NCBI RefSeq assembly: GCF_002797935.1
Contig: NZ_PGER01000001.1
Location: 1,550,001 to 1,614,000 of the forward strand
Source: Flavobacterium sp. 1
GTDB lineage: Bacteria > Bacteroidota > Bacteroidia > Flavobacteriales > Flavobacteriaceae
Reading direction: 5' to 3'
Length of the DNA: 64,000 nucleotides
The translations under genes were made by a program, and so were the position numbers. Within the stretch, counting starts at the first letter, position 1. Every line of letters starts with the position of its first letter. The notes beneath the pieces are model-generated. The model had not been told where the DNA came from. It made no database searches and worked only from the letters and a program-made list of their open reading frames with translations. This document shows positions 1,010 through 17,566 of the stretch, piece by piece.

Positions 1010-1204
1010 CTAACGAATCCGTTTGAAAATTATTTTTTTAGTTTCATTTGCTTGAATGATTAGATATTTTTTATTTATTTCATATTTTCCTTTCAGTAAT
1101 GTTACCATTTGTGATTCTACGGGTTCATCAAACGTACTGGGCTGAACAATAAATTGCGTTCCCAAGATTTTTGCAAAGGCATACGAAAGAATCATTGTTG
1201 CCAT
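1010..1204 (-). CDS. small hypothetical protein (doubtful)
   Basis: A 64-codon open frame starting MATMILSYAFAKILGTQF, 84 bp downstream of the dehydratase gene on the same strand. It has no motif I recognise, no signal peptide, and an in-frame stop directly before the ATG with no clear ribosome binding site. It does not resemble a LanC cyclase, so it is not a detached piece of the missing domain. It could be a small gene of the RiPP operon, a gene remnant or a chance frame. Confidence 0.25.
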   Translation of the reverse strand: MATMILSYAFAKILGTQFIVQPSTFDEPVESQMVTLLKGKYEINKKYLIIQANETKKIIFKRIR

Positions 1205-1288: not shown

Positions 1289-3169
1289 TTAAAGTTTAAC
1301 CGAATCCGTAATCAGCATTATTTGATTCTCAAAATCTTCTATGCTTGCATTTTTAACTTTATTGTGTATATTTTCTATAGCACTGCATTTTATTAAATCC
1401 ATGCTTTTTTTATTGGGTAAATTGATACGGTTATCTAAAGCCTTAATATAAAATACAGGAATATCATCTCGTAACATTTGTTCTCGCTCCGCATCTAATA
1501 TGGGGCCGCCATTATCAAAAGCTATGTATGCTTTTGCTAACATCTCCAGTTTTATTCCATACTTGATGGAATCAGCCAAATATTCCTGCTTATTTAGAAA
1601 TTTTAAAATCTTAGCGTACACTTTTGTGTGGCGGTTGACAAAACGAATTTTGGAACTATAAAAATTAGTAATGGGAGAATATTCAGACTGCAGATGTTTT
1701 TTGTTTTTCAAAATTAAATTGTACAACTTTTGAAACCCTGTCTTAAACTCTTTTTCATATTCTGCAAGATTTACAACTGAATCGTTCAAAAAAGGCTTAT
1801 TTAATTTGTACAGTTTTTTCGTCTCCATTTCAGAAATCACTTTCATGGAATCTTTATTCACATCTTGAATTTTTGAAATTGGGAAATCAGACTCTAACAT
1901 TTTTGAAGAACCAAATCCGTACATATAATAGGGCAAATTTAAATGTCTTGTCGGGAGCAGTGATGCCTCAAAAATTGATCTAAAAATAGCACTCTGTGAT
2001 TCTTGATTTTCTCCGTTGAGCTGTTTTAATTCCGGGCTCAGAATAGTTTCATGATCTATTAAAACGGGACAGTTCCCTGAAGCAATTATATTTTCGCAGT
2101 GAAAATCTTTAGCATTCAAAAAATAAGTTACTCCCAATAAAATACCGGCTCTTTCATAGTACAGTTTTACATCTTCAATATTGTTACAAGGCGAATTTTC
2201 AATAAATTCTAACCAGCCATGATTCCCTTTATCCAAGACCTTAAAGGTTTTTAAGTTTTCTTCCATGTTCTCATTTACCCAGTTTAGAAACTCATTATAG
2301 GAATTTGTTATACTTAAATTGGTAGGTTTGTAAACTAATTTATGAGAATTTTCAAACTCAAGAATGATAGTCGATTCTCCATTGTGCTGATCACCTGAAC
2401 TTAAATGAAGTTTTGTAAGCTGATCAAACTTTTTATCTAAAAGTAGTTTTAAATCAGGTTTGTCATTTTCAAATCTTTTAAAAACAGTAGTTATAAAAAC
2501 AATATAATCTGATGTTTTTTTAGAAAGTTTGCGGGCAAGCATTGGATACTTTAAAAATAAATCCTGAAATTTATCTGATAAAGTACCGAAAACAAATTTC
2601 TTATAATAGAAATCCTCTGCTAAATCGTGGGCTGAATTTTCTGTTTTTATTTCATTAAATTCATGAAACAAAACTAAATCCGATAAATTATAAAGATCTT
2701 CGTATAATTTTATGCCTAATTGATCTATAACATCATTATTCGGTATTGGTATATTTTCTTCGGTCAAATTTTGAGTCAACTTTTTAAAAAAGCAATCCAA
2801 AAACGGTAAAAAAAGATGATAAAATGCCTTTTGAGAATGATTATGATCAGACATAGATTTTTTCACATCTGTCTCGTTTAAAACATCTTCTAATACAAAT
2901 ATCCAATCTGGAAAATTAATATTTTCTTCGATAGCAATTATACTTGAAATCATTTTAGAAATGTCTTCGCTAGCCAGATTATTTGTAGTGCAGTATTTTT
3001 TAAAAATTTCCTCTGAACCGTCGTTAGCTATTGTTTTTTTCCAATAATCTAGATAATCCAAATCTCCATTTTTTTCAAAAGAACATTGATATTGCTTACT
3101 AATATTTAATATTTCGAAAGGAGTCAGCGATTTGAAGTATATGCTTTCTGATAATGGAGAACGCTTCAT
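1289..3169 (-). CDS. LanM-type lanthipeptide dehydratase (DUF4135) without cyclase domain
   Basis: Expected to phosphorylate Ser/Thr in a RiPP core peptide and eliminate phosphate to give dehydroamino acids. At 626 residues it covers only the dehydratase half; family LanM enzymes are usually about 900-1000 residues with a C-terminal LanC-like zinc cyclase. Visible motifs are GDQHNGES near residue 262, the kinase lysine in VYKP (K281), DFHCEN (D355, H357, N360), IDHET (D372, E374), and RFVNRHTKVY (R509, R513, T515) in the region assigned to elimination. The chain ends about 50 residues after the REQMLRDDIPVF segment, where dehydratase domains normally end, and no zinc-ligand motifs follow. It lies downstream of the NHLP precursors on the same strand, behind an attenuator-like hairpin. 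The frame is intact, so absence of the cyclase looks like architecture rather than a local frameshift. Confidence 0.88.
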   Translation of the reverse strand: MKRSPLSESIYFKSLTPFEILNISKQYQCSFEKNGDLDYLDYWKKTIANDGSEEIFKKYCTTNNLASEDISKMISSIIAIEENINFPDWIFVLEDVLNETDVKKSMSDHNHSQKAFYHLFLPFLDCFFKKLTQNLTEENIPIPNNDVIDQLGIKLYEDLYNLSDLVLFHEFNEIKTENSAHDLAEDFYYKKFVFGTLSDKFQDLFLKYPMLARKLSKKTSDYIVFITTVFKRFENDKPDLKLLLDKKFDQLTKLHLSSGDQHNGESTIILEFENSHKLVYKPTNLSITNSYNEFLNWVNENMEENLKTFKVLDKGNHGWLEFIENSPCNNIEDVKLYYERAGILLGVTYFLNAKDFHCENIIASGNCPVLIDHETILSPELKQLNGENQESQSAIFRSIFEASLLPTRHLNLPYYMYGFGSSKMLESDFPISKIQDVNKDSMKVISEMETKKLYKLNKPFLNDSVVNLAEYEKEFKTGFQKLYNLILKNKKHLQSEYSPITNFYSSKIRFVNRHTKVYAKILKFLNKQEYLADSIKYGIKLEMLAKAYIAFDNGGPILDAEREQMLRDDIPVFYIKALDNRINLPNKKSMDLIKCSAIENIHNKVKNASIEDFENQIMLITDSVKL

Positions 3170-3208
3170 ATATAATGATTTAAAAGATGTATAAAAAGTC
3201 TATGTGCT

Positions 3209-3268
3209 AAAAAAAAAATAGGTATTGTTAATTTATTTATAGAGAACTATAATAGATTAACAATACCT
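3209..3268 (-). terminator. intrinsic terminator / attenuator between precursor genes and dehydratase gene
   Basis: On the minus strand a perfect 13-bp stem (AGGTATTGTTAAT paired with its complement; arms at 3256-3268 and 3220-3232) encloses a 23-nt loop and is followed by a run of about ten T. It lies 46 bp after the precursor stop and 40 bp before the dehydratase start. Partial read-through would give more precursor than enzyme transcript. The function is inferred. Confidence 0.75.
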
Positions 3269-3313
3269 AAAGGAGTTGTTTATTAGATGAGATTATCTAA
3301 AAATGATGTGGAA

Positions 3314-3631
3314 TTAGTTCCCCCATCCAATACAGATTCCTGTCCAAAGAATCTCTAAATTGAATTGTCCACCTGCAACAGCTTCCAATTCAGCGTCTGT
3401 TAATTCCATATTTTCAGGATTAGCAGGAATGTTGATATAAACAGCAGAATAATCTGTTTGATCTGTTACAATTAGTTTTTTACCTTTTAAATCTAATGGT
3501 TTACCAGATAATTTTTCAATAGCCTGAACCGGGTTACTTACTAACTCTTGTTTGAAAGTTTCATCTTCCCAAGCTTTTTTGATAATTGTTTTTAAGTTTT
3601 TTTCTGCGTTTTCTCTTTCTTGATTTGTCAT
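3314..3631 (-). CDS. NHLP-leader RiPP precursor, copy A
   Basis: A 105-residue precursor. Residues 1-88 form a nitrile-hydratase-like leader, recognised by KKAWEDETFKQELVSNPVQA, the acidic segment MELTDAELEAV and the cleavage-type AGG at 86-88. The putative core is QFNLEILWTGICIGWGN (17 residues) with one Thr (T97) and one Cys (C100), so at most one ring of the T-x-x-C type is possible if a cyclase exists. The protein is identical to copy B, with about five silent base differences over the gene. It is the last precursor before the dehydratase gene, separated from it by the attenuator. No C39 peptidase transporter is seen nearby. Confidence 0.9.
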   Translation of the reverse strand: MTNQERENAEKNLKTIIKKAWEDETFKQELVSNPVQAIEKLSGKPLDLKGKKLIVTDQTDYSAVYINIPANPENMELTDAELEAVAGGQFNLEILWTGICIGWGN

Positions 3632-3706
3632 GATCTTATGTTTTAAAGTTGTTTTAAAAAAATATAATATTTTTGATTATTTTTAGTTTGATGACTGAAT
3701 CAGGAA

Positions 3707-4024
3707 TTAATTTCCCCATCCAATACAGATTCCTGTCCAAAGAATTTCTAAATTGAATTGTCCACCTGCAACAGCTTCCAATTCAGCGTCTGTTAATTCC
3801 ATATTTTCAGGATTAGCAGGAATGTTGATATAAACTGCAGAATAATCTGTTTGATCTGTTACTATTAGTTTTTTACCTTTTAAATCTAATGGTTTACCAG
3901 ATAATTTTTCAATAGCCTGAACCGGGTTACTTACTAACTCTTGTTTGAAAGTTTCATCTTCCCAAGCTTTTTTGATAATTGTTTTTAAGTTTTTTTCTGC
4001 GTTTTCTCTTTCTTGATTTGTCAT
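3707..4024 (-). CDS. NHLP-leader RiPP precursor, copy B
   Basis: The encoded 105 residues are identical to copy A, including leader, AGG site and the 17-residue core with T97 and C100. The nucleotide sequences differ only at about five synonymous positions, so this is a recent tandem duplication with a period of 393 bp or a gene-converted pair. Flanking sequence outside the coding region has diverged: the 5' neighbourhood shares only the first few bases before the ATG. It lies 40 bp after the Cys-free precursor gene, presumably in the same operon. Confidence 0.9.
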   Translation of the reverse strand: MTNQERENAEKNLKTIIKKAWEDETFKQELVSNPVQAIEKLSGKPLDLKGKKLIVTDQTDYSAVYINIPANPENMELTDAELEAVAGGQFNLEILWTGICIGWGN

Positions 4025-4064
4025 GATTTTATTATTTTAAGGTTAATATTTAATAATTAATTAT

Positions 4065-4397
4065 TTATATTTTTATGTAATCTTTTAATGTTGGAAAAAG
4101 GCTGTTTACTAAATCCGACCATACGGTTTGTCCGCCCGCTATTATTTCCAATTGACTTTCAGTCAGTTCAACATCTTCAATATTGGGCTCCGAAGGAATA
4201 TTTACAAATACCTTAGATTTATCCGTCTGATCATTAATTACCAGTGTCTTTCCCTCCGGCAGAACAATTTTAGCTCCTGTCAGATTTTCTATTGCTTTCA
4301 TAGGATCCGCAATCAAGCTTTTTCTAAAATTAGCATCTTCCCAGGCTTTTGAAATTATTAATCGCAAAACTTCTTCTTTATTTTTCCTTTGCTCCAT
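4065..4397 (-). CDS. NHLP-leader RiPP precursor with Cys-free core
   Basis: A 110-residue protein with the same leader layout: ISKAWEDANFRKSLIADPMKA, the acidic VELTESQLEII segment and AGG at residues 87-89. The core (QTVWSDLVNSLFPTLKDYIKI, 21 residues with no more than four hydroxy residues T91, S94, S99, T103) has no cysteine, so it cannot form a lanthionine. It could still be dehydrated by the downstream DUF4135 enzyme. It is the first gene of the precursor-precursor-precursor-dehydratase series, with three tandem promoter-like repeats upstream. Confidence 0.87.
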   Translation of the reverse strand: MEQRKNKEEVLRLIISKAWEDANFRKSLIADPMKAIENLTGAKIVLPEGKTLVINDQTDKSKVFVNIPSEPNIEDVELTESQLEIIAGGQTVWSDLVNSLFPTLKDYIKI

Positions 4398-4426
4398 GAT
4401 TCAATCTATTTCTTTATTGATGTGAA

Positions 4427-4480
4427 ATTAGTCGATCTTTTTGTGACAAAATTGCCAAATAAACCGGCAAAAAACATTTT
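4427..4480 (-). promoter_or_regulatory. putative precursor promoter (proximal copy)
   Basis: Minus-strand sequence TTTTTTGCCGG, TTTATTTGGCAATTTT and GACTAATTTC aligns base for base with the region upstream of the precursor gene at 6826-7152. The TTTG and TAATTTC blocks, 25 bases apart, resemble the Bacteroidetes -33/-7 boxes, though the spacing is slightly long. Transcription from here would start about 25-30 bases before the ATG at 4397. Confidence 0.5.
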
Positions 4481-4740
4481 AATTGTAATCTTTAAAATCA
4501 TCAATCACGAAGTTTATTTTGCTTTTGCGTCTTAAACCGTCCTCGTTATTAATGTAAATTTAGCGAGTCTGTTTATGATAAAATTGCCAAATAAACTGAC
4601 AAAAAACATTTTAATTGTAATCTTTAAAATCATAAATAGTGAAGGTTATTTTGCTTTTGCATCTTGAACCGTTCTCGTTATTAATGTAAATTTAGCGAGT
4701 CTGTTTATGATGAAATTGCCAAATAAACTGACAAAATATA
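4427..4740. repeat. 132-bp tandem repeat, about 2.4 copies, carrying precursor promoter elements
   Basis: The string ATTGCCAAATAAAC recurs at 4451, 4583 and 4715, an exact 132-bp period, and flanking sequence (TTAATTGTAATCTTTAAAATCAT; GCGAGTCTGTTTATGAT) repeats with it. Read on the minus strand each copy holds TATTTGGCAATTTT followed about 20 bases later by CTAA(A)TTT-CAT. The same arrangement precedes the precursor gene ending at 7152, so the repeats are copies of a precursor promoter region lying upstream of the 4065-4397 gene. Confidence 0.85.
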
Positions 4741-4763
4741 ATTTAGTAATAAGCATTATTTGG

Positions 4764-6728
4764 TTAGTTATTTGGAATATGAGAATTCTTTTCCACAAAA
4801 TACATCTTGAGTTCTCCCTTTCCCTTTGCTTGAATACTTCCTCTATATTCAAAACTAAAGCATTCTTCATTTTTTATGAGATTATAAAGCGATTCACTGA
4901 TGTTAACTTTACCTACAATTCCGTTGCTTTCAATCCTGCTAGCGGTATTTACAGTGTCACCCCATACATCATATTGAAATTTCTTTATTCCTACAATACC
5001 TGCTACAATAGGCCCTGCATGAATACCTAATCGCATCTCAAAAGCAGGATTATTATTCGCTTCGTTGTTAATTTTTCTTTTAGCCATAAAATCCTGCATT
5101 TCTAATCCTGCTAATACAATATTTGTTAAAGATTCTTTATCTGGTTTTGGGATGCCTCCGGCAGCCATATAAGAATCTCCAATTGTTTTAATTTTCTCAA
5201 TATTGTATTTTTCAGTGATCAAATCAAAAGCTTTGAAACAGGCATTTATTTCTTCTACTAAATTTTGAGGAGACATTTTCTCAGCGGTTTGAGTAAAGGA
5301 TTTAAAATCTGAAAAAAGTATAGAAACTAAATTAAAGTTTCGGGCACTAACAAAACCTTTTTGTTTTAGTTCTTGTGCTATTTCTTCTGGCAATATATTT
5401 AGTAATAGTTCATCAGAGAGGTCCTTTTCTATTTTTAAAGCTTTTTTAGATTTTCGTGTGTAGTTTAATCTATTCCATAATCCTAAAGTAATAAGAACAA
5501 TAAAACACAAAGAGATAATAATAATATTTCGTTGCGTTTCCTTTTTTTGAACTTCTTCTTTATGTTTGATTTCAACAGCGTGTTCCTTCTTTACATGAGA
5601 TATACTATCTAGTAATTGTTGACGTTGAAACTCCATATTCATCATTTTATTAGAAGTTTCTTCAGATTTTAAGCTGTCTTTGAAATTAATTGATTTTTCA
5701 TAAAAATGAAGAGCTAATTTATCGTTTTTAATAAACTTATATGCATTATAAAGACAATCACAGGCATCTTTTTTAACTGATATAGCGCCTATTTTTTCAG
5801 CAGTATTATATCCTTTTAGGCATTTTGTAATTGCTTGTTTGTTTTTATTTAATTTATTTAATATTTTCCCAAGGGCAACTTCTGTGATACTTATATATTG
5901 CAAACTATTAATTTCGGTTGAATATTTTAGAGAAAGATTATAGTAATATAATGCTCGCTCAAAATTTGATTGTTTAAAAAACAATTCTCCTAAACTAGAT
6001 AATACTTCAATTTTTAATTGTTTATCATTTATTTTATCTGCAATAACTAGTGCTTGATTAAGATTCTTCTGAGCTTTTGGGTAATTAGCCAATTTTATAT
6101 AGACTATCGCAGAAGCATTTAAGTTTTGAGAGATGGCTTTTACATCAGTACTGTTTTTATAAATTAAATAAGATTTATCATAGTATTTCAATGCATTTGA
6201 GTAATCTTCCACTTGCGAATAAATTCCGCCAATATTTTGTGAAGTTGCTGCAGTCATTTTAGTATCGTTTAGTTCTTCTTGAACAACAATAGCCTGTTTG
6301 TAATAGTTTAAAGCATTTAGATAATTTCCTAAATAATAATAAACCCCTCCTATATTATTTAATATCGAAGAAATTCCTTTTTTATATTTTGTTTTTTTAT
6401 ATTCTTCGTTACTTTTCTTAAAAAAGAATAAAGCATTTGAATAATCTCCTTGATAATAATATGTTACTGCTTTATAACTATAACAATCACCTACTTTTCG
6501 ACTTTTACCCAAAGAGTTATAAATCCTTAAACTTTTATCGAAGTACAATAATGATTGTGAATAATCTCCTGCATCCTGACTTTTCATACCTAAATTAAGA
6601 ATGGAATCTGCCATCTTAATGTTCTTGTTTGTCACGATCACTTTTTGTTCAATGTTTGGTTGTCCAAAAAACGGTATTCCATTAAATAATAAAAAGATAG
6701 AGAAAACAATATTTATGACTCTTCTCAT
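4764..6728 (-). CDS. TPR-containing class III adenylate/guanylate cyclase
   Basis: Predicted to make a cyclic nucleotide in response to a signal read by its periplasmic TPR part. The start was set at MRRVINIVFSIFLLFNG, which gives a normal signal peptide or membrane anchor; an ATG 42 bases upstream lies inside the palindrome. After it come tandem TPR-type repeats (about residues 40-350, many Y-x-A-L-x-Y-Y units), a charged helix, one membrane segment (IIIISLCFIVLITLGLW, about 400-420) and a class III cyclase domain. Metal-binding aspartates are D474 in LFSDF and D518 in GDSY; the NTASR motif supplies the transition-state Asn/Arg. Lys in IKTIGD and Asp in YDVWGD favour ATP over GTP. It sits between two precursor genes on the same strand; a functional link is inference. 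Confidence 0.88.
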   Translation of the reverse strand: MRRVINIVFSIFLLFNGIPFFGQPNIEQKVIVTNKNIKMADSILNLGMKSQDAGDYSQSLLYFDKSLRIYNSLGKSRKVGDCYSYKAVTYYYQGDYSNALFFFKKSNEEYKKTKYKKGISSILNNIGGVYYYLGNYLNALNYYKQAIVVQEELNDTKMTAATSQNIGGIYSQVEDYSNALKYYDKSYLIYKNSTDVKAISQNLNASAIVYIKLANYPKAQKNLNQALVIADKINDKQLKIEVLSSLGELFFKQSNFERALYYYNLSLKYSTEINSLQYISITEVALGKILNKLNKNKQAITKCLKGYNTAEKIGAISVKKDACDCLYNAYKFIKNDKLALHFYEKSINFKDSLKSEETSNKMMNMEFQRQQLLDSISHVKKEHAVEIKHKEEVQKKETQRNIIIISLCFIVLITLGLWNRLNYTRKSKKALKIEKDLSDELLLNILPEEIAQELKQKGFVSARNFNLVSILFSDFKSFTQTAEKMSPQNLVEEINACFKAFDLITEKYNIEKIKTIGDSYMAAGGIPKPDKESLTNIVLAGLEMQDFMAKRKINNEANNNPAFEMRLGIHAGPIVAGIVGIKKFQYDVWGDTVNTASRIESNGIVGKVNISESLYNLIKNEECFSFEYRGSIQAKGKGELKMYFVEKNSHIPNN

Positions 6729-6768
6729 GAACATGTACGTTTTAATATTTATTAAAACGTACATGTTC
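6729..6768. promoter_or_regulatory. 18-bp perfect inverted repeat abutting the cyclase start codon
   Basis: GAACATGTACGTTTTAAT (6729-6746), a 4-base spacer and the exact reverse complement (6751-6768) lie directly before the cyclase ATG at 6726-6728. As DNA it could be an operator for a dimeric regulator; as RNA it would form an 18-bp hairpin that ends one base from the start codon and would block initiation. Which applies cannot be decided from sequence. Confidence 0.8.
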
Positions 6769-6825
6769 AAAATATAGAATAGGTACGTTTTTTAATTTTT
6801 AAAATTGCCAATAAGTTAATTTTTA

Positions 6826-7152
6826 TTAAAAAATATCCCCAGAAAAATTGTTAGGCTTAATAATTATAGGTGGGGTTATATCTCCATCTCCACCAGCAAC
6901 TATATCAAGTTGTTCTTCATTCAATTCTACATCGTCCATATTGAGTTCAGCAGGAATATTGATAAAAATTGTCGACGAATCTGTTTGATCAACAAATGCA
7001 ATATTTTTACCTTCGGGTAGATGAATTGGATGTCCTAAAAAGCTTTCTATCGTTGTGACGGGTCTAGTTATTAAATTGCTTTTAAAAGTTGGATCTTCCC
7101 ATGCTTTTTTAACAATTGCATCTAGAATTTTTTGGTCATTAGTTAATTCCAT
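6826..7152 (-). CDS. NHLP-leader RiPP precursor with Cys-free, Pro/Ile-rich core
   Basis: A 108-residue protein. The leader carries VKKAWEDPTFKSNLITRPV, the VDQTDSSTIFINIPAELNMD segment shared with the other precursors, and AGG at 86-88. The core DGDITPPIIIKPNNFSGDIF (20 residues) has only T93 and S104 as possible dehydration sites and no cysteine. It is separated from the other precursors by the cyclase gene, but shares their upstream element. It may use the dehydratase at 1289-3169 in trans, or be unmodified. Confidence 0.85.
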   Translation of the reverse strand: MELTNDQKILDAIVKKAWEDPTFKSNLITRPVTTIESFLGHPIHLPEGKNIAFVDQTDSSTIFINIPAELNMDDVELNEEQLDIVAGGDGDITPPIIIKPNNFSGDIF

Positions 7153-7330: not shown

Positions 7331-8143
7331 AGAGCATGTTTAAATTTTATTCAATAAATGTTTTATAGCAGCCAATTTGACCATGTTTTCGGAAGAATCC
7401 ATTAACAACTCATAGTTCCTGCATAATCTTCTGTCGTTGTCAAACCAAGCAAATGTTCTTTCTATCACCCATCTTTTATGTGTAGGCTTAAAAGCTGATT
7501 TCCTGTCATCAGACCTCATAACTACTTGAATCATAAATTAAAATTTACTTTTAACTTGTTCTATAATTTTTCCTCTAGCCACCATCGGCAAGGATAACTT
7601 TTACAGGGCAGAGAAAATAGTTTTGGGTTCTCATCAACAGAAGCACTGCTTTATTATCATGAATATTTACCACGGTTACCATAATAGCTAATAAAAAACC
7701 ATCAAAGCTTTTTAAGGAACGATTATTTATCCAGCGAACGCTTTGACTATCCATTATTCCTAGACGTGGCTCTGCATTTTGTCATATTTTGATGCAAACT
7801 CACTCACTTAACTTAGAAAGCAATAAATCAAAATCTTCTAAATCAGCTCATTTTGAATAGTAATAATAAACAAGCTGCCATTTTGGAAAATCAGAAGGCA
7901 ACATTCGCCACTGGCAACCACTCTTAATCAAGTATTTGATTACTTTCCAAATCAAACGCGAGCTATGTTTACGTTTTCTATCGCCTAATTCTAATGTTTT
8001 TTTAATAAATTGCCACTGAGTTTCTGTTAAATCAGTTGGCTACATCTTCTTGTTGTTTGGTTACTACAAAAAGAACAATTCCAATCGGTTTCTTTAAAGT
8101 TAATATTAGTTACAAAAACAAAATTTATTTTGAACATTTGTTC
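7331..8143 (-). mobile_element. decayed IS5-family (IS427/IS1031-like) insertion sequence
   Basis: The left end carries AGAGCATGTTTAAATTTT, a typical terminal inverted repeat for this group in Bacteroidetes. A degenerate match (AAATTTATTTTGAACATTTGTTC, 8121-8143) may be the other end. The transposase between them is broken by several stops. End assignments are tentative. Confidence 0.55.
7340..8045 (-). pseudogene. IS5-family DDE transposase, multiply interrupted
   Basis: Minus-strand pieces in order read PTDLTETQWQFIKKTLELGD and SGCQWRMLPSDFPKWQLVYY (N-terminal helix-turn-helix region of IS427-type transposases), GIMDSQSVRW (first catalytic Asp region), VILADGG (second Asp region) and RWVIERTFAWFDNDRRLCRN (C-terminal Glu region, with an open frame to 7340). 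The second codon after the start is a stop, further stops and frame changes lie between the pieces, and part of the middle is missing. The element cannot encode an active enzyme. Confidence 0.8.
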
Positions 8144-9663: not shown

Positions 9664-11736
9664 ATGACAAATAATATACTTATTGAAAATCAATATAAAA
9701 GAACCCGTTTATTTGAAAAAGAAAATATAAGTTATTTGGTTAGAGTTTTAAAGAGATTTAATACCGTGCCAAAGATCAACAACATAAACATTATTACTTC
9801 AAATAATGAACCAAACCTATTTAAAATTGTTCCCAACAAATCAATTATAATTGGCTCGTCATTTTTAGACAAACCCGTTTTGGCTTTAATTTATCTAAGA
9901 TATGGTGTTGAATGGCAACTTTGGTACAAAGCTTTAGGAAAAGATAAATCAGACACCCTTTTATGCGATATAGCAGCTCTAAAAGTCACTAAAATATTTT
10001 ATGAAATATTGCCAAAAGAGGATAAGGAAAAATTAAAAAACCTCAATCATTTTTTAATTGACATGATTAAAAATGAGGAGTCTTTGGATATTGAATCTTT
10101 AATAAAACACAGAGAACTAGAATCTATACATGGAATAAATGATTCCAAAAAAGTATTTGAAAAATCTTGGGAACCAATTCTTGAAAATCTAGCAAAACCA
10201 ACTGAATATTTATTAATGTCAGGCGGCGATCTTAGATTGAATATTGACGAAATTGAATTGTTAAACAAATATGGCTGCCGGCCATTTCCAAGACCAGATG
10301 CATTTACTTTTGCCTCATCAACTGCAACAAGCATCTCTAATTTTGCTTTTGATAAAACTGACAAAGTTAGACGTATATTAATTCAAAATAGTTTAAAAAA
10401 AGGTTTCAAAAATACAACTATTGCATTTTCAGAATTGCTAAAAAACAACCTCAGAAAAACCCTTAAAATAAATGATGAATGCCAAATAATTTTTTCACCT
10501 TCGGGGACTGATTCTGCTCTTCAAATAGCAGCCATTACTCAAATTATTTCTGATAAGGAAATTACGCATGTTTTAGTAGCTTCTGATGAAACAGGCAGTG
10601 GCGTACCCGCAGCATTAAAGGGGTACCATTTTGAAAATACCACAGCTTTAAATCATCCTGTTACAAAAGGAAATAAAATTGAAGGATTTAGAGATATTGA
10701 TTTGATTAAAATTCCATTAAGAAATGAAAACGGCGGATTAAAATCTTCATTAGAATTGGATTCAGAAGTTTTTACTGCCGTTTCAAAAACTAATGAATTA
10801 GGAAGGCATATCGTATTACATGTAATGGATCAATCAAAATTAGGATATCAATCACCAAGCGAAAAAATAATTAAAAGCTTGGATACTCTTGACAATTTAT
10901 CAATGCAGATTATTGTAGACGCGTCACAGCTTAGATTAGACCCAAAAGACATACAAAATTATTTAAATAAAGGATATATTATTACAATAACCGGAAGCAA
11001 ATATTTTACAGGACCTCCATATTCAGGAGCATTAATCCTGCCTAAAAGAGTTAGTAAATCCATTAATTCTGCAAAAATTACAATGCCAAAAGGGTTAAAC
11101 AATTATTACAATCATTCCGATTGGCCAACATCCTGGTTTTGTTCCAAAGATTTATCAGATGGATTTAATTATGGGTCCAATATGCGCTGGAATGCTGCTA
11201 TAGTTGAAATGGATAGGTATTATAAAACACCCATTTTATACAGAAATATGGGAATTGAGATGTTTTGTAACTTTGTTGAAGACTCTATTAAAGATGTCGC
11301 TTTTTTAGAACCTCTTTTTGGAGATAAAACAAAAACAAACACTTATGACAGTAACGAATTTGGATTAAGAAACATTTGCACAATTTTTCCTTTTTTTATT
11401 CTTAAAGATGAAAAAGCATTATCTATTGATCAAGTAAAAAAAATCTACATATTGCTGAATTCTGACATATCCGACAAATTTGAAGATTCACATATAGAAA
11501 TCATTAGGCTTGCTTCTCAAAAATGCCATATTGGACAACCTGTTAATGTAAAATATGTCAATAATTTTCAAAGTGCAGTTTTGAGAATAAGTTTGGGGGC
11601 AAGAGTAATTTCTGAAAGCTGGGTTAATAGGGATATTAGTCTCTTTTTCAGAAACATCGAAACACAAATGAATCAGATTACTATAATTATAAAAAAGATA
11701 GAATTAATCCTAAACAATCCTGAATTGCTGGATTAA
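9664..11736 (+). CDS. large PLP-dependent enzyme (fold type I), uncharacterised
   Basis: A 690-residue soluble protein without signal peptide. Residues 200-600 have the layout of fold type I PLP enzymes near the class V aminotransferases: SPSGTDSALQ (about 278-287) for the phosphate-binding loop, VDASQLRLD with D419 to pair with the pyridine nitrogen, and ITGSKYFTGPP with K446 as the Schiff-base lysine. The first 190 residues and the last 90 match nothing I recognise, and the protein is about 250 residues longer than usual for the fold. It starts 92 bp after the NifX-like gene on the same strand and may be co-transcribed. The reaction cannot be assigned. The PLP call is firm on motifs, the rest is open. 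Confidence 0.7.
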   Translation: MTNNILIENQYKRTRLFEKENISYLVRVLKRFNTVPKINNINIITSNNEPNLFKIVPNKSIIIGSSFLDKPVLALIYLRYGVEWQLWYKALGKDKSDTLLCDIAALKVTKIFYEILPKEDKEKLKNLNHFLIDMIKNEESLDIESLIKHRELESIHGINDSKKVFEKSWEPILENLAKPTEYLLMSGGDLRLNIDEIELLNKYGCRPFPRPDAFTFASSTATSISNFAFDKTDKVRRILIQNSLKKGFKNTTIAFSELLKNNLRKTLKINDECQIIFSPSGTDSALQIAAITQIISDKEITHVLVASDETGSGVPAALKGYHFENTTALNHPVTKGNKIEGFRDIDLIKIPLRNENGGLKSSLELDSEVFTAVSKTNELGRHIVLHVMDQSKLGYQSPSEKIIKSLDTLDNLSMQIIVDASQLRLDPKDIQNYLNKGYIITITGSKYFTGPPYSGALILPKRVSKSINSAKITMPKGLNNYYNHSDWPTSWFCSKDLSDGFNYGSNMRWNAAIVEMDRYYKTPILYRNMGIEMFCNFVEDSIKDVAFLEPLFGDKTKTNTYDSNEFGLRNICTIFPFFILKDEKALSIDQVKKIYILLNSDISDKFEDSHIEIIRLASQKCHIGQPVNVKYVNNFQSAVLRISLGARVISESWVNRDISLFFRNIETQMNQITIIIKKIELILNNPELLD

Positions 11737-13908: not shown

Positions 13909-14778
13909 ATGAAATACCTTGTTTATCTAATTGTTTACCCTTTTTTATGGTGTATTTCAATGCTCCCCTTTCCGTTATTGTATCTTTTTTCAGATTTTGT
14001 TTATATAGTTTTATACCAAATTATTGGTTACAGAAAAAAAACAGTTCGTGAAAATCTCTCTTTGGCTTTGCCACATTTATCAAATAAAGAACGATTGATT
14101 ATTGAAAAGAAATTTTACCATCATTTGTGTGATATGTTTCTGGAAATGATAAAAACAATGAATATTTCCAAAGAAGAAATCTGCAAAAGATATGTTTTCA
14201 AAAATTTTGAAGTCTATGCAGATTTAGAAAAGAAACAAAAAAGCATTGCTATCATGTGCGCTCATTATGCCAGTTATGAATGGGTTATGTCGATGAATTA
14301 TTTTACAACATTTAAAAGCTTTGGAATTTATAAGCAAATAAAAAATCCTTACTTTGATAAATTAATACATACTATTCGTTCAAGGTTTAATGCACACTTA
14401 ATAACTACGAAAGAAACAATTCCTATCATCTCAAATAATTGCAGAAACAAAACATTATCAGTTTATGGATTTGCCAGTGATCAATCTCCAAAAGAAAACT
14501 GCGCCTACCATTGGGCGAAATTCATGGGAATTGAGGTTCCTGTTCATACCGGAGCCGAAATGCTTTCGAAAAAATATGACATGAATATTATTTTTCTTAG
14601 AACAAAAAAAGTAAAACGCGGTTATTATGAGGCTACTATGGAAGTTCTTTCTGAAAATGCAAAAAAAGTCCCAAACTACGAAATTACAGACCAGTTCTTA
14701 AAACTTGTAGAACAGCAAATTTATGAAACTCCAGAATACTATTTATGGACTCATAAAAGATGGAAACACAAAAGATAA
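13909..14778 (+). CDS. lipid A-type acyltransferase (LpxL/HtrB family), first of a tandem pair
   Basis: A 289-residue inner-membrane enzyme that would transfer a secondary acyl chain to lipid A or a related lipid. An N-terminal hydrophobic anchor (YLIVYPFLWCISMLPFPLLY) is followed by RKKTVRENLSLALP, the HX4E catalytic pair in CAHYASYEW (H119, E124), GIYKQIKNPYFDKLIHTIRS, and ASDQSPK before the C-terminal WTHKRWKHKR. These are the usual LpxL family blocks. The next gene is a close paralogue. Confidence 0.9.
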   Translation: MKYLVYLIVYPFLWCISMLPFPLLYLFSDFVYIVLYQIIGYRKKTVRENLSLALPHLSNKERLIIEKKFYHHLCDMFLEMIKTMNISKEEICKRYVFKNFEVYADLEKKQKSIAIMCAHYASYEWVMSMNYFTTFKSFGIYKQIKNPYFDKLIHTIRSRFNAHLITTKETIPIISNNCRNKTLSVYGFASDQSPKENCAYHWAKFMGIEVPVHTGAEMLSKKYDMNIIFLRTKKVKRGYYEATMEVLSENAKKVPNYEITDQFLKLVEQQIYETPEYYLWTHKRWKHKR

Positions 14779-14874
14779 CATTTTGTAATAATTGTTGAAT
14801 ACTTAGCGATTCTAAATTTTGAAAGAATATAAAGAAAAATATTATTTATTTATATTTGCATAAATTCAGACTAC

Positions 14875-15753
14875 ATGCAATACTTCATATATTTATTAGC
14901 CTATCCTCTAATTTGGAGCATATCGATGCTTCCTTTTCCATTACTATATTTATTTTCTGATATTGTTTATTTCTTTGTTTACAGAATTATTGGATATCGT
15001 AAAAAAACAGTTCGTGAAAATCTAGCTTTGGCACTTCCAAAATTATCCGACAATGAGCGCTTAGTCATTGAAAAAAAATTCTATCACCATATGTGTGATA
15101 TGTTTCTGGAAATGATAAAAACAATGAATATTTCTGAAGAGGAAATATGCAAGAGATTTGTTTTTAAAAACATTGACATGTATAAAGAGATAGAAAAACA
15201 AGGAAAAAGCGTTGCTATTATATGTTCTCATTATGCTAGTTATGAATGGATTATATCCATGAACTATTATTCTGACTTTACAGCCTATGGAATTTATAAA
15301 CAATTAAAAAATCCATATTTTGACAAATTAGTGCATAAAATCCGTTCTAGGTTCAATGCCAAATTAATTACTACAAAACAAACCGTACCGACAATAATTA
15401 ATAATAATAAGAATAATGTTTTGTCTTTGTATGGTTTTGCCAGTGACCAATCCCCTAAAGCCAAAGCAGCAGTGCATTGGTCAAAGTTTATGGGAATTGA
15501 AGTACCTGTTCATGTTGGTGCAGAAATGCTATCGAAAAGATACAATATGAATTTAATTTATCTGAATACTAAAAAAATATCGCGAGGTCATTATGAAGCA
15601 ACTCTTGAACTCCTCTCGGACAATCCAAAGGAAGTTCCAAACTTTGAACTCACTGATCAATATTTAAAACTTTTAGAAAAACAAATCTATGAAGCTCCTG
15701 AATATTATTTGTGGACACACAAAAGATGGAAATACAAGAGAGAAAGTGTCTAA
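14875..15753 (+). CDS. lipid A-type acyltransferase, second of a tandem pair
   Basis: A 292-residue paralogue of the preceding gene, colinear throughout: the same membrane anchor, RKKTVRENLALALP, the catalytic CSHYASYEW (H119, E124), ASDQSPKAKAAVHWSKFMGI and WTHKRWKYKR. The two proteins look well over 60% identical by eye, so they arose by tandem duplication. They may add different acyl chains or one may be redundant. A 96-bp gap separates them and may hold its own promoter. Confidence 0.9.
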   Translation: MQYFIYLLAYPLIWSISMLPFPLLYLFSDIVYFFVYRIIGYRKKTVRENLALALPKLSDNERLVIEKKFYHHMCDMFLEMIKTMNISEEEICKRFVFKNIDMYKEIEKQGKSVAIICSHYASYEWIISMNYYSDFTAYGIYKQLKNPYFDKLVHKIRSRFNAKLITTKQTVPTIINNNKNNVLSLYGFASDQSPKAKAAVHWSKFMGIEVPVHVGAEMLSKRYNMNLIYLNTKKISRGHYEATLELLSDNPKEVPNFELTDQYLKLLEKQIYEAPEYYLWTHKRWKYKRESV

Positions 15754-15822
15754 AATTTCAGATTTAGAAATTTGGCATAATAAAAAACTCTTAGCTTCTC
15801 AGTCTCTTAGAATCTCAATAAC

Positions 15823-17310
15823 TTATAAAGAAAACCAATTCTGCACTAATGTATCTTCCAATGCCAGTGCATCTTTATGAACAAACTCATTAGTTTCTTT
15901 GTTATAATCGTAGTCTAATGACCAGCTTTTATGATTTTCTGCTAAGGATTTTATGCTCTTGCACACATATTCAATTTCGGCAGTGGTTGTAGTTGGATGT
16001 ATTGACATTCTGATCCAGCCCGGCTTTCTGATTAAATCTCCCAAACTAATTTCATCAATTAATTTATTTGAAGCTTCTTGATCCACATGCAATAAAAAAT
16101 GCCCGTAAGTTCCAGCACAACTGCATCCTCCACGGGTTTGAATACCAAATTTATCATTCAATAATTTTACACCCAAATTAAAGTGTAAATCTTCGATAAA
16201 AAATGAAATTACTCCCAAACGATTGTGATGCTGTCCAGCAAGGATCTTTATATTTGGAATACTTCCCAATGCATCAAATACATATTCAACAATTTCGTGT
16301 TCGCGATTAAGAATATTATCAATTCCCATTTGCTCCTTCAATTGAATTGCCAAAGCTGTTTTAATAACCTGCAGAAAGCCAGGAGTACCGCCGTCTTCCC
16401 TATCTTCAATATTGTCAATGTATTTATGCTCACCCCATGGATTTGTCCAAGAAACGGTTCCTCCGCCTGGACAATCCGGAATCATATTGTGGTATAATTT
16501 TTTATTAAAAACCAAAACTCCTGAAGTACCCGGGCCTCCCAAAAATTTATGCGGAGAAAAGAAAATGGCATCCAAATACGATTCTGAATCTTCGGGATGC
16601 ATATCGATTTTTACGTAAGGACCTGAACAGGCAAAATCCACAAAACAAACACCATTGTATTCATGCATAAGCTTTGCTGCTTCATGGTATGGCGTTTTAA
16701 TTCCTGTCACATTCGAACAGGAAGTTATCGAAGCAATTTTATAGGCTCTATCCTTATATTTTTCTAATAAAGAAACAAGATTGTCAAGACTAAAAAGTCC
16801 CTCGTCACATGATGGAATAACTTCAACATCGGCAATAGTTTCCAACCATGAAGTTTGATTAGAATGATGCTCCATGTGCGAAATAAATACAATTGGTTTT
16901 TTTTCGGCTGGAATATTGAAATATTCCGTTAGATTTTCAGGAACTTTTAATCCTAATATGCGCTGAAATTTATTTACAACGCCAGTCATTCCAGTTCCAT
17001 CGGTTATTAAAACATCATTAGAATCTGCATTTACATGGTGCTTAATAATATGGCGCGCTTGATGATAAGACTTAGTCATTGCTGTTCCAGAAACTGTTGT
17101 TTCAGTATGTGTATTAGCAACAAAAGGTCCAAAATCGTTCATTAATTTTTCTTCGATGGGACGATACAAACGGCCGCTTGCTGTCCAATCTGTATAGATA
17201 ATTTTTTGTTGACCATAAGGGGAATCAAACTCTTGATCAATTCCTATAATATTATTTCTAAATTGCTGAAAATACTGTTCTAATGATGCAGGGGCTTTTG
17301 TTGTGGACAT
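15823..17310 (-). CDS. class V aminotransferase / cysteine desulfurase-like PLP enzyme
   Basis: The start was placed at MSTTKAPASLEQYFQQF (495 residues); an upstream in-frame ATG would add 18 residues with no family support. The fold is the NifS/SufS type: IYTDWTASGRLYRPIEEKL at the entry, THTETTVSGTAMTKSYHQAR, VFISHMEHHSNQTSWLE, CFVDFACSGPYVKID for the PLP-binding Asp, and FFSPHKFLGGPGTSG with Schiff-base K255. A cysteine-containing loop TRGGCSCAGTYGH lies where desulfurases carry the catalytic Cys. It is longer than SufS (about 405 residues) and belongs to an uncharacterised subgroup common in Flavobacteria. It converges on the acyltransferase genes and stands alone. Confidence 0.87.
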   Translation of the reverse strand: MSTTKAPASLEQYFQQFRNNIIGIDQEFDSPYGQQKIIYTDWTASGRLYRPIEEKLMNDFGPFVANTHTETTVSGTAMTKSYHQARHIIKHHVNADSNDVLITDGTGMTGVVNKFQRILGLKVPENLTEYFNIPAEKKPIVFISHMEHHSNQTSWLETIADVEVIPSCDEGLFSLDNLVSLLEKYKDRAYKIASITSCSNVTGIKTPYHEAAKLMHEYNGVCFVDFACSGPYVKIDMHPEDSESYLDAIFFSPHKFLGGPGTSGVLVFNKKLYHNMIPDCPGGGTVSWTNPWGEHKYIDNIEDREDGGTPGFLQVIKTALAIQLKEQMGIDNILNREHEIVEYVFDALGSIPNIKILAGQHHNRLGVISFFIEDLHFNLGVKLLNDKFGIQTRGGCSCAGTYGHFLLHVDQEASNKLIDEISLGDLIRKPGWIRMSIHPTTTTAEIEYVCKSIKSLAENHKSWSLDYDYNKETNEFVHKDALALEDTLVQNWFSL

Positions 17311-17566
17311 TGTATTTAAATTTGGATTCAAATATATTAATTTTTGATTAAATTTAAATTTCATTGTTTACGTTTTTACAAATTTTACCACCGCAAACAA
17401 TAATTATTCTCAAATTACCTTTTGTACTCTTAAATTTTTTGACAAATATTTAAAAAATCAGCCTTTAAATAAATTATCTATTTAATCTATAGATTAAAAA
17501 AAAGCTTAAAATTTTAGGTTTAAAATTCAAATAAAAATAGCAGTAAAGAAGTACAATATTTCCATT

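Follow-up and report, generated by a model that had tools for sequence, protein, structure and literature searches.

Cyclase-free relatives of the class II lanthipeptide synthetases (LanM) are already known, PoyF and EmbM among them (PMC9505594). The CcaM pathway has been described as giving a product without lanthionine (PMC10676384), cysteine-less cores behind NHLP leaders encoded beside LanM were earlier expected by Haft and co-workers to stay dehydrated (PMC2887384), and a survey of Flavobacteriaceae names a Kordia proteusin cluster (PMC10734526). We analysed a locus of this general kind in Flavobacterium sp. 1, which has a single-contig genome of 5.35 Mb (NZ_PGER01000001.1), within a window of 64,000 nucleotides (positions 1,550,001 to 1,614,000; the window means this whole stretch). 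It encodes a LanM-type dehydratase without a cyclase and four precursor peptides with NHLP leaders, and we put the probability at roughly 0.6 that the enzyme acts on Thr9 of two identical precursors, here called type C, leaving one dehydrobutyrine per peptide.

The enzyme and precursor coordinates of a preliminary description of this DNA were confirmed. That description did not include the 668 amino acid (aa) tetratricopeptide repeat (TPR)/nucleotidyl cyclase gene, which sits between precursors 3 (type A) and 4 (type B), or the exporter genes, which are located outside the window. The features of the locus are as follows, in window positions.

1289..3169, minus strand: cyclase-free class II (LanM-type) dehydratase, 626 aa (PF13575, TIGR03897, CylM-aligned residues, predicted fold)
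3314..3631, minus strand: NHLP precursor type C copy 1, 105 aa, likely substrate, directly upstream of the enzyme (TIGR03793); core 3317-3367, Thr9 codon 3341-3343, Cys12 codon 3332-3334
3707..4024, minus strand: NHLP precursor type C copy 2, protein identical to copy 1 (TIGR03793); core 3710-3760
4065..4397, minus strand: NHLP precursor type A, companion, probably not a substrate (TIGR03793, 53.9 bits); core 4068-4130, QTVWSDLVNSLFPTLKDYIKI
4764..6770, minus strand: protein with TPR and adenylate/guanylate cyclase catalytic domain, 668 aa, start codon uncertain (PF00211, 184.8 bits)
6826..7152, minus strand: NHLP precursor type B, companion, probably not a substrate (TIGR03793, 49.6 bits); core 6829-6888, DGDITPPIIIKPNNFSGDIF
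1010..1204, minus strand: remnant of a DoxX-like membrane-protein gene; an N-terminal and a C-terminal piece align separately to a 295 aa protein of locus L013

PF13575 (DUF4135) matched the 626 aa open reading frame (ORF) at 320.9 bits, the one match in the whole genome, whilst the TIGR03897 (LanM) match spanned model positions 2-519 of 932 and so covered the dehydratase half only, the C-terminal LanC domain being absent. Alignment to CylM paired D355/H357/N360 with D347/H349/N352, and R509/T515 with R506/T512, which we take to serve phosphorylation and elimination, respectively. Among 107 distinct sequences of up to 690 aa, a set defined by length that takes in L080 and fragments, 106 kept all twelve catalytic positions and the remaining one had Ser for Thr; R509, R513 and T515 were invariant across all 52 aligned sequences. 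The structure predicted from 52 sequences (mean predicted local distance difference test score 91.7) covered residues 7-619 of LicM2 and 3-621 of CylM, presumably about where the dehydratase half of those enzymes ends. In the rows shown, matches ranked below these two were lipid kinases and other kinases, as expected for the fold. The protein therefore carries the DUF4135 domain with kinase and elimination residues by which class II LanM enzymes are recognized, and, as in PoyF-like systems, this lone domain is encoded near NHLP-leader precursors. Because the residues for both phosphorylation and elimination are intact and the predicted structure spans the dehydratase half of CylM and LicM2, dehydration appears likelier than a kinase-only role.

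The four precursors scored 58.5, 58.5, 53.9 and 49.6 bits with TIGR03793 (leader_NHLP) against a cut-off of 50.9, so that three were over it and the fourth (type B) was 1.3 bits under, and a search of the genome with the same model at E up to 10 found none beyond these four. Their NHLP leaders end in the Gly-Gly motif characteristic of proteusins and other NHLP-type ribosomally synthesized and post-translationally modified peptides. The cores that follow are QFNLEILWTGICIGWGN, present twice and holding one Cys, and those of types A and B, which have none. The identical pair, whose genes differ at five nucleotides, all in third codon positions, belongs to a variable type found next to the enzyme. 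These data bear out the preliminary description in its account of an intact DUF4135 protein lacking LanC and of four NHLP-leader precursors with one Cys or none. Its expectation of products rich in dehydroamino acids does not follow, because the cores hold just one (type C), four (type A) and two (type B) Ser/Thr, and the likely substrate offers a single candidate site.

A homologue search in which 7,993 candidates were scored returned 99 proteins, of which the 81 best carried PF13575 alone; 17 of the remaining 18 also carried PF05147 and one (P0096) did not. A recent truncation of a full LanM, named in the preliminary description as an outcome that would overturn its view, was rejected: close homologues match the enzyme in length, these 81 are DUF4135-only, and the cyclase-free enzymes cluster in the tree. 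For tree building, enzymes longer than 690 aa were labelled full-length, and 8 of the 99 proteins were taken in. The 33 loci omitted were those that duplicated the window or another locus, were near-copies, or gave rows that were short, broken or cut at a contig end. In the resulting 94-row tree the cyclase-free label takes three changes. A quick maximum-likelihood tree of 91 rows, from which L080 (683 aa, Herpetosiphonaceae), L156 (broken) and P0096 were also dropped, separated 40 cyclase-free from 51 longer enzymes across one branch (SH-aLRT 98) with one label change, and the 40 were from Bacteroidota in every case of known origin. Judged by longest ORF, they comprised subclades of 616-658 aa (13 rows, including the window), 483-512 aa (10) and 506-531 aa (14), besides three deeper rows. 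No LanC profile match was found in L080, L154, L160 or P0096; other DUF4135 proteins with no recognizable LanC therefore exist, most of them outside this clade.

The association with NHLP precursors recurred in wider samples. Among 398 genomes of the genus sample, 12 had DUF4135: eight cyclase-free, all with NHLP leaders, and four longer, none with them. Ten further genomes had NHLP matches without DUF4135, and two of these (G626 and G662) were inspected. Chryseobacterium, the genus of locus L015, had DUF4135 in 22 of 173 genomes; the enzyme was cyclase-free in ten, one of which also had a full-length enzyme. In 26 of 80 loci the enzyme ORF was no longer than 690 aa; 25 of these were from Bacteroidota, 24 with an NHLP precursor, and the other was L080, without one. 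The dehydratase without a cyclase is thus, on comparative evidence, a conserved member of a distinct Bacteroidota family and not a relic, which supports the preliminary description in its pairing of a cyclase-free enzyme with NHLP precursors. As a separate observation, a split class I pair (Lant_dehydr_N and Lant_dehydr_C) follows the cyclase-free class II enzyme in L015 of Chryseobacterium defluvii (14325-17427, plus strand).

The peptides beside the enzyme carried conserved Ser/Thr motifs. Within the window's subclade the nearest cores were QFNLEILWTGICIGWGN, FKFQLGWTLLCLDTSSDF, KGVEISWSFICVTW, WFVTLLWTSISFGDGDPGGASVGF, QQQLDISGHITVIITFTLVCW, SDYFSSWFCNNDVTIINN, QEASIRSYFCDWTINIPITIY, AEASIRSVICSYSMCGDIIINL and WFVQLGWTLICFGDGDPGGTSVSVE. 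Eight of the nine contained [ST]xxC, that is, Ser/Thr three residues before Cys, and all nine contained [ST]-x-hydrophobic-[CS]; to call the enzyme-adjacent cores simply cysteine-poor, as had been done, misses this regular placement. In the 506-531 aa subclade, Ser/Thr stood at residue 2 in 10 of 13 nearest cores (expected 1.4, tail 1.8e-8), a pattern also picked after reading, with 3 of 16 loci dropped as near-copies. SCxFLSC was common to 5 of 12 loci in the third subclade. Two, perhaps three, enzyme lineages thus each have their own kept Ser/Thr in adjacent peptides, as would be expected were these the sites of modification. Cysteines averaged 0.56 per distinct core at cyclase-free loci (187 cores, a set that includes the enzyme-less G626 and omits the window) versus 1.22 at the other loci of the 80-locus set (45 cores), ORFs without a recognizable Gly-Gly motif having been dropped; this difference weakly supports a low cysteine content of the cores as a hallmark of cyclase-free enzymes.

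Most related loci shared one gene order: type B, TPR/nucleotidyl cyclase, type A, a run of variable precursors, the enzyme, then regulators and exporter, with departures in L024, L026, L030 and L053. In two sets of related loci, 20 of 25 and 13 of 15 had a homologue of the TPR/nucleotidyl cyclase, and a type B-like precursor lay directly upstream of the cyclase gene in many relatives. A type A core was recognizable in 27 of 40 loci, a count that takes in G626 and the window. Type A cores without Ser or Thr occurred in L015 and L151; that of L015, AQPVWRDLVDGMFPDLRDYIKI, lacks Ser, Thr and Cys alike and comes from a cluster of the window's own enzyme subclade. The type B core of L035, from another subclade, is GDPGAIIQE, again free of Ser/Thr. 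Since such cores occur in both types, neither can be obligatory as a substrate. Both types persist in G626, which has no DUF4135 match and carries a JmjC-type oxygenase gene in that stretch instead. From these comparisons we therefore predict that types A and B accompany the module for export and regulation and are not substrates. The oxygenase gene itself (PF08007; L107 10073-11287, minus strand) is flanked by the precursor array and the kinase gene, and its occurrence in this dehydratase-less cluster suggests an exchange of tailoring enzymes. As the enzyme and its adjacent peptides vary beside kept companions, comparison alone can separate likely substrates from companions.

Searching the genome for LanC with PF05147 at E 0.001 gave no match, and LanC was absent from the flanks examined of the 25 Bacteroidota cyclase-free loci, some of which are cut by contig ends. 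Of the eight cyclase-free genomes in the genus sample, five had no LanC and three had one or two, none within the stretches around the enzyme; in a further set of loci LanC appeared at G933 only, beside a DUF4135 in pieces. Leftward of the window on the same strand (locus L002) there follow genes for a TPR histidine kinase, a response regulator, an AraC-type regulator, a cyclic nucleotide monophosphate (cNMP)-binding protein, TolC, HlyD (TIGR03794, 307.7 bits), a C39-containing ABC transporter (TIGR03796, 1039.4 bits), a second ABC transporter (TIGR03797, 855.9 bits) and a DUF7005 protein, all three scores being over the cut-off. The genes from TolC through the second ABC transporter, situated some 5 to 13 kb outside the window on its left side, constitute an NHLP export cassette, and the transporter therefore belongs to this cluster. 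A LanC or full LanM with a C39 transporter elsewhere in the genome, the other outcome that was to have spoken against the idea, likewise did not turn up, as the C39 transporter lies within the same cluster.

Taken together, we propose that the enzyme would phosphorylate Thr9 of the core QFNLEILWTGICIGWGN and that elimination of the phosphate would then convert Thr9 to dehydrobutyrine; the C39 domain of the exporter would cut after Gly-Gly and the core would be exported, with the two type C precursors as the only substrates. Outside this claim, Cys12 might add to the dehydrobutyrine unaided by an enzyme, because it lies three residues after Thr9, a usual spacing of a small methyllanthionine ring. 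A lanthionine or methyllanthionine product is hence possible.

Several observations weigh against this proposal and the family on which it draws. When L082, L154, L155, L159 and L160 were put back into the tree, support for the branch with the 40 dropped to 60, and that branch also took in the split gene L159 and the 752 aa L160, which sits on a very long branch; a 98-row tree without L160, L154 and P0096 required two label changes. In L015 Ser replaces Cys in the motif, and the other two subclades had [ST]xxC in just 3 of their 12 and 3 of their 16 nearest cores. Same-letter shuffles, in which L015 was represented by its second-nearest, near-identical core copy, gave tails of 4.7e-7 for [ST]xxC and 2.4e-7 for [ST]-x-hydrophobic-[CS], values that overstate significance and serve as a guide only, the motifs having been picked after reading the cores and the loci being related. 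The type A and type B cores here hold four and two Ser/Thr, which makes their dehydration possible. LanC was over the cut-off in 13 of 25 related genomes (weak in two, none at E 1e-3 in ten), such that a distant cyclase may help there. A lone DUF4135 domain is also not always active, given that CcaM showed no activity when reduced to its N-terminal half (PMC10676384), and the similar lone domain of EmbM leaves phosphates (PMC9259500).

Among the other explanations, one is that a whole Bacteroidota lineage makes methyllanthionine-like rings without a cyclase: one dehydrobutyrine would form within [ST]-x-hydrophobic-Cys, the Cys would close the ring by itself, and exchangeable enzyme and peptide cassettes would plug into a fixed cluster of two companion peptides, nucleotidyl cyclase, cNMP-binding protein and exporter. 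We advance this tentatively, as an idea with the odds against it. A true methyllanthionine peptide, with the Dhb9-Cys12 ring closed by the dehydratase itself or by an unrecognized cluster protein, seems unlikely. Cys at +3 in eight of nine loci would fit it, as would the kinase-fold cyclases that close aminovinyl-cysteine rings (PMC12291118); however, neither the genome nor the flanks examined of related loci gave a LanC match, and the DUF7005 gene is the sole scanned cluster gene without an assigned role.

We regard as rather improbable the alternative that the enzyme is a peptide kinase which stops at phosphorylation, as in the phospeptin pathway, so that a phosphopeptide would be exported. 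EmbM sets the precedent, a lone LanM dehydration domain giving a linear peptide on which phosphates are left (PMC9259500, PMC9505594), but its elimination site is mutated (PMC9259500). Here R509, R513 and T515 are all kept, R509 and T515 in register with CylM R506 and T512, and the kinase alternative, raised in the preliminary description, is weakened accordingly. That all four precursors are substrates, giving linear peptides with several dehydroamino acids as originally suggested, is the least probable of these explanations: the four share a leader family and strand, and lanthipeptide enzymes can be promiscuous, yet the relatives' Ser/Thr-free cores of both types and the retention of types A and B in G626, with an oxygenase gene and no DUF4135 match, speak against it.

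The remaining genes and sequence features add context. The TPR/nucleotidyl cyclase protein and the cNMP-binding protein of the export cassette suggest second-messenger control of the peptide system. By eye, the former has a signal sequence and a membrane segment; PADLOC returned no match for the dehydratase and weak cyclase and TPR matches for the TPR/cyclase gene. In Flavobacterium ajazii an intact counterpart of the DoxX-like remnant stands directly after the enzyme (L013 11884-12771), the DoxX match of that 295 aa protein being weak (17.2 bits, below the cut-off). The DUF7005 protein (L002 5931-7067, minus strand), encoded downstream of the exporter and with homologues in several related loci, contains HECTH, which by eye is like the zinc-peptidase HExxH motif. 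Just upstream of the cluster (7340-8040, minus strand) are short ORFs resembling transposase remnants, again by eye, and a stretch without an evident gene holds about 17 tandem TAG trinucleotides (492-545). For a 690 aa protein (9664-11736, plus strand) neither Pfam nor NCBIfam gave a match at E up to 1, and parts of it resemble a pyridoxal phosphate-dependent enzyme by eye.

No description of this Bacteroidota clade was found in the literature searched, whose coverage leaves out many subscription journals. Lanthipeptide mining has been anchored on LanC (PMC7268733), and surveys of that design would overlook most of these clusters except where a LanC lies nearby by coincidence, so that there has been little chance so far to notice these enzymes. 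The minimal system seen here, with one enzyme, one candidate Thr and one Cys, bears on how a lone LanM dehydratase acts and on whether small thioether rings need a cyclase.

Compared with the class II synthetases CylM and LicM2, the window enzyme lacks the LanC half and groups apart from the sampled full-length enzymes. CcaM, the LanMbC enzyme of the dehydrazole pathway in Chryseobacterium carnipullorum, is alike in having a DUF4135 dehydratase in a proteusin-like pathway of Flavobacteriia (PMC10676384), but its fused class III-like cyclase domain is not present here, the 626-residue protein stopping with the dehydratase half. YcaO, the LanMbC partner, did not turn up in the Pfam scan of cluster genes, to which the search for it was confined. 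EmbM and PoyF were compared by description only. EmbM resembles the present enzyme as the sole maturase, with one LanM-type dehydration domain, a linear peptide and a Gly-Gly leader; it differs in its Nif11-type leader, mutated elimination residues and phosphorylated product, whereas here the leader is of NHLP type and the residues are intact. PoyF of the polytheonamide (proteusin) pathway works with radical SAM, methyltransferase and hydroxylase partners, none of which was among the cluster genes scanned here, and its Thr is the N-terminal residue, whereas the 17-residue type C core has its sole Thr at position 9. The two systems are nevertheless alike in combining a cyclase-less LanM dehydratase domain, which in PoyF acts on a Thr and is predicted to do so here, with an NHLP-leader precursor (PMC9505594).
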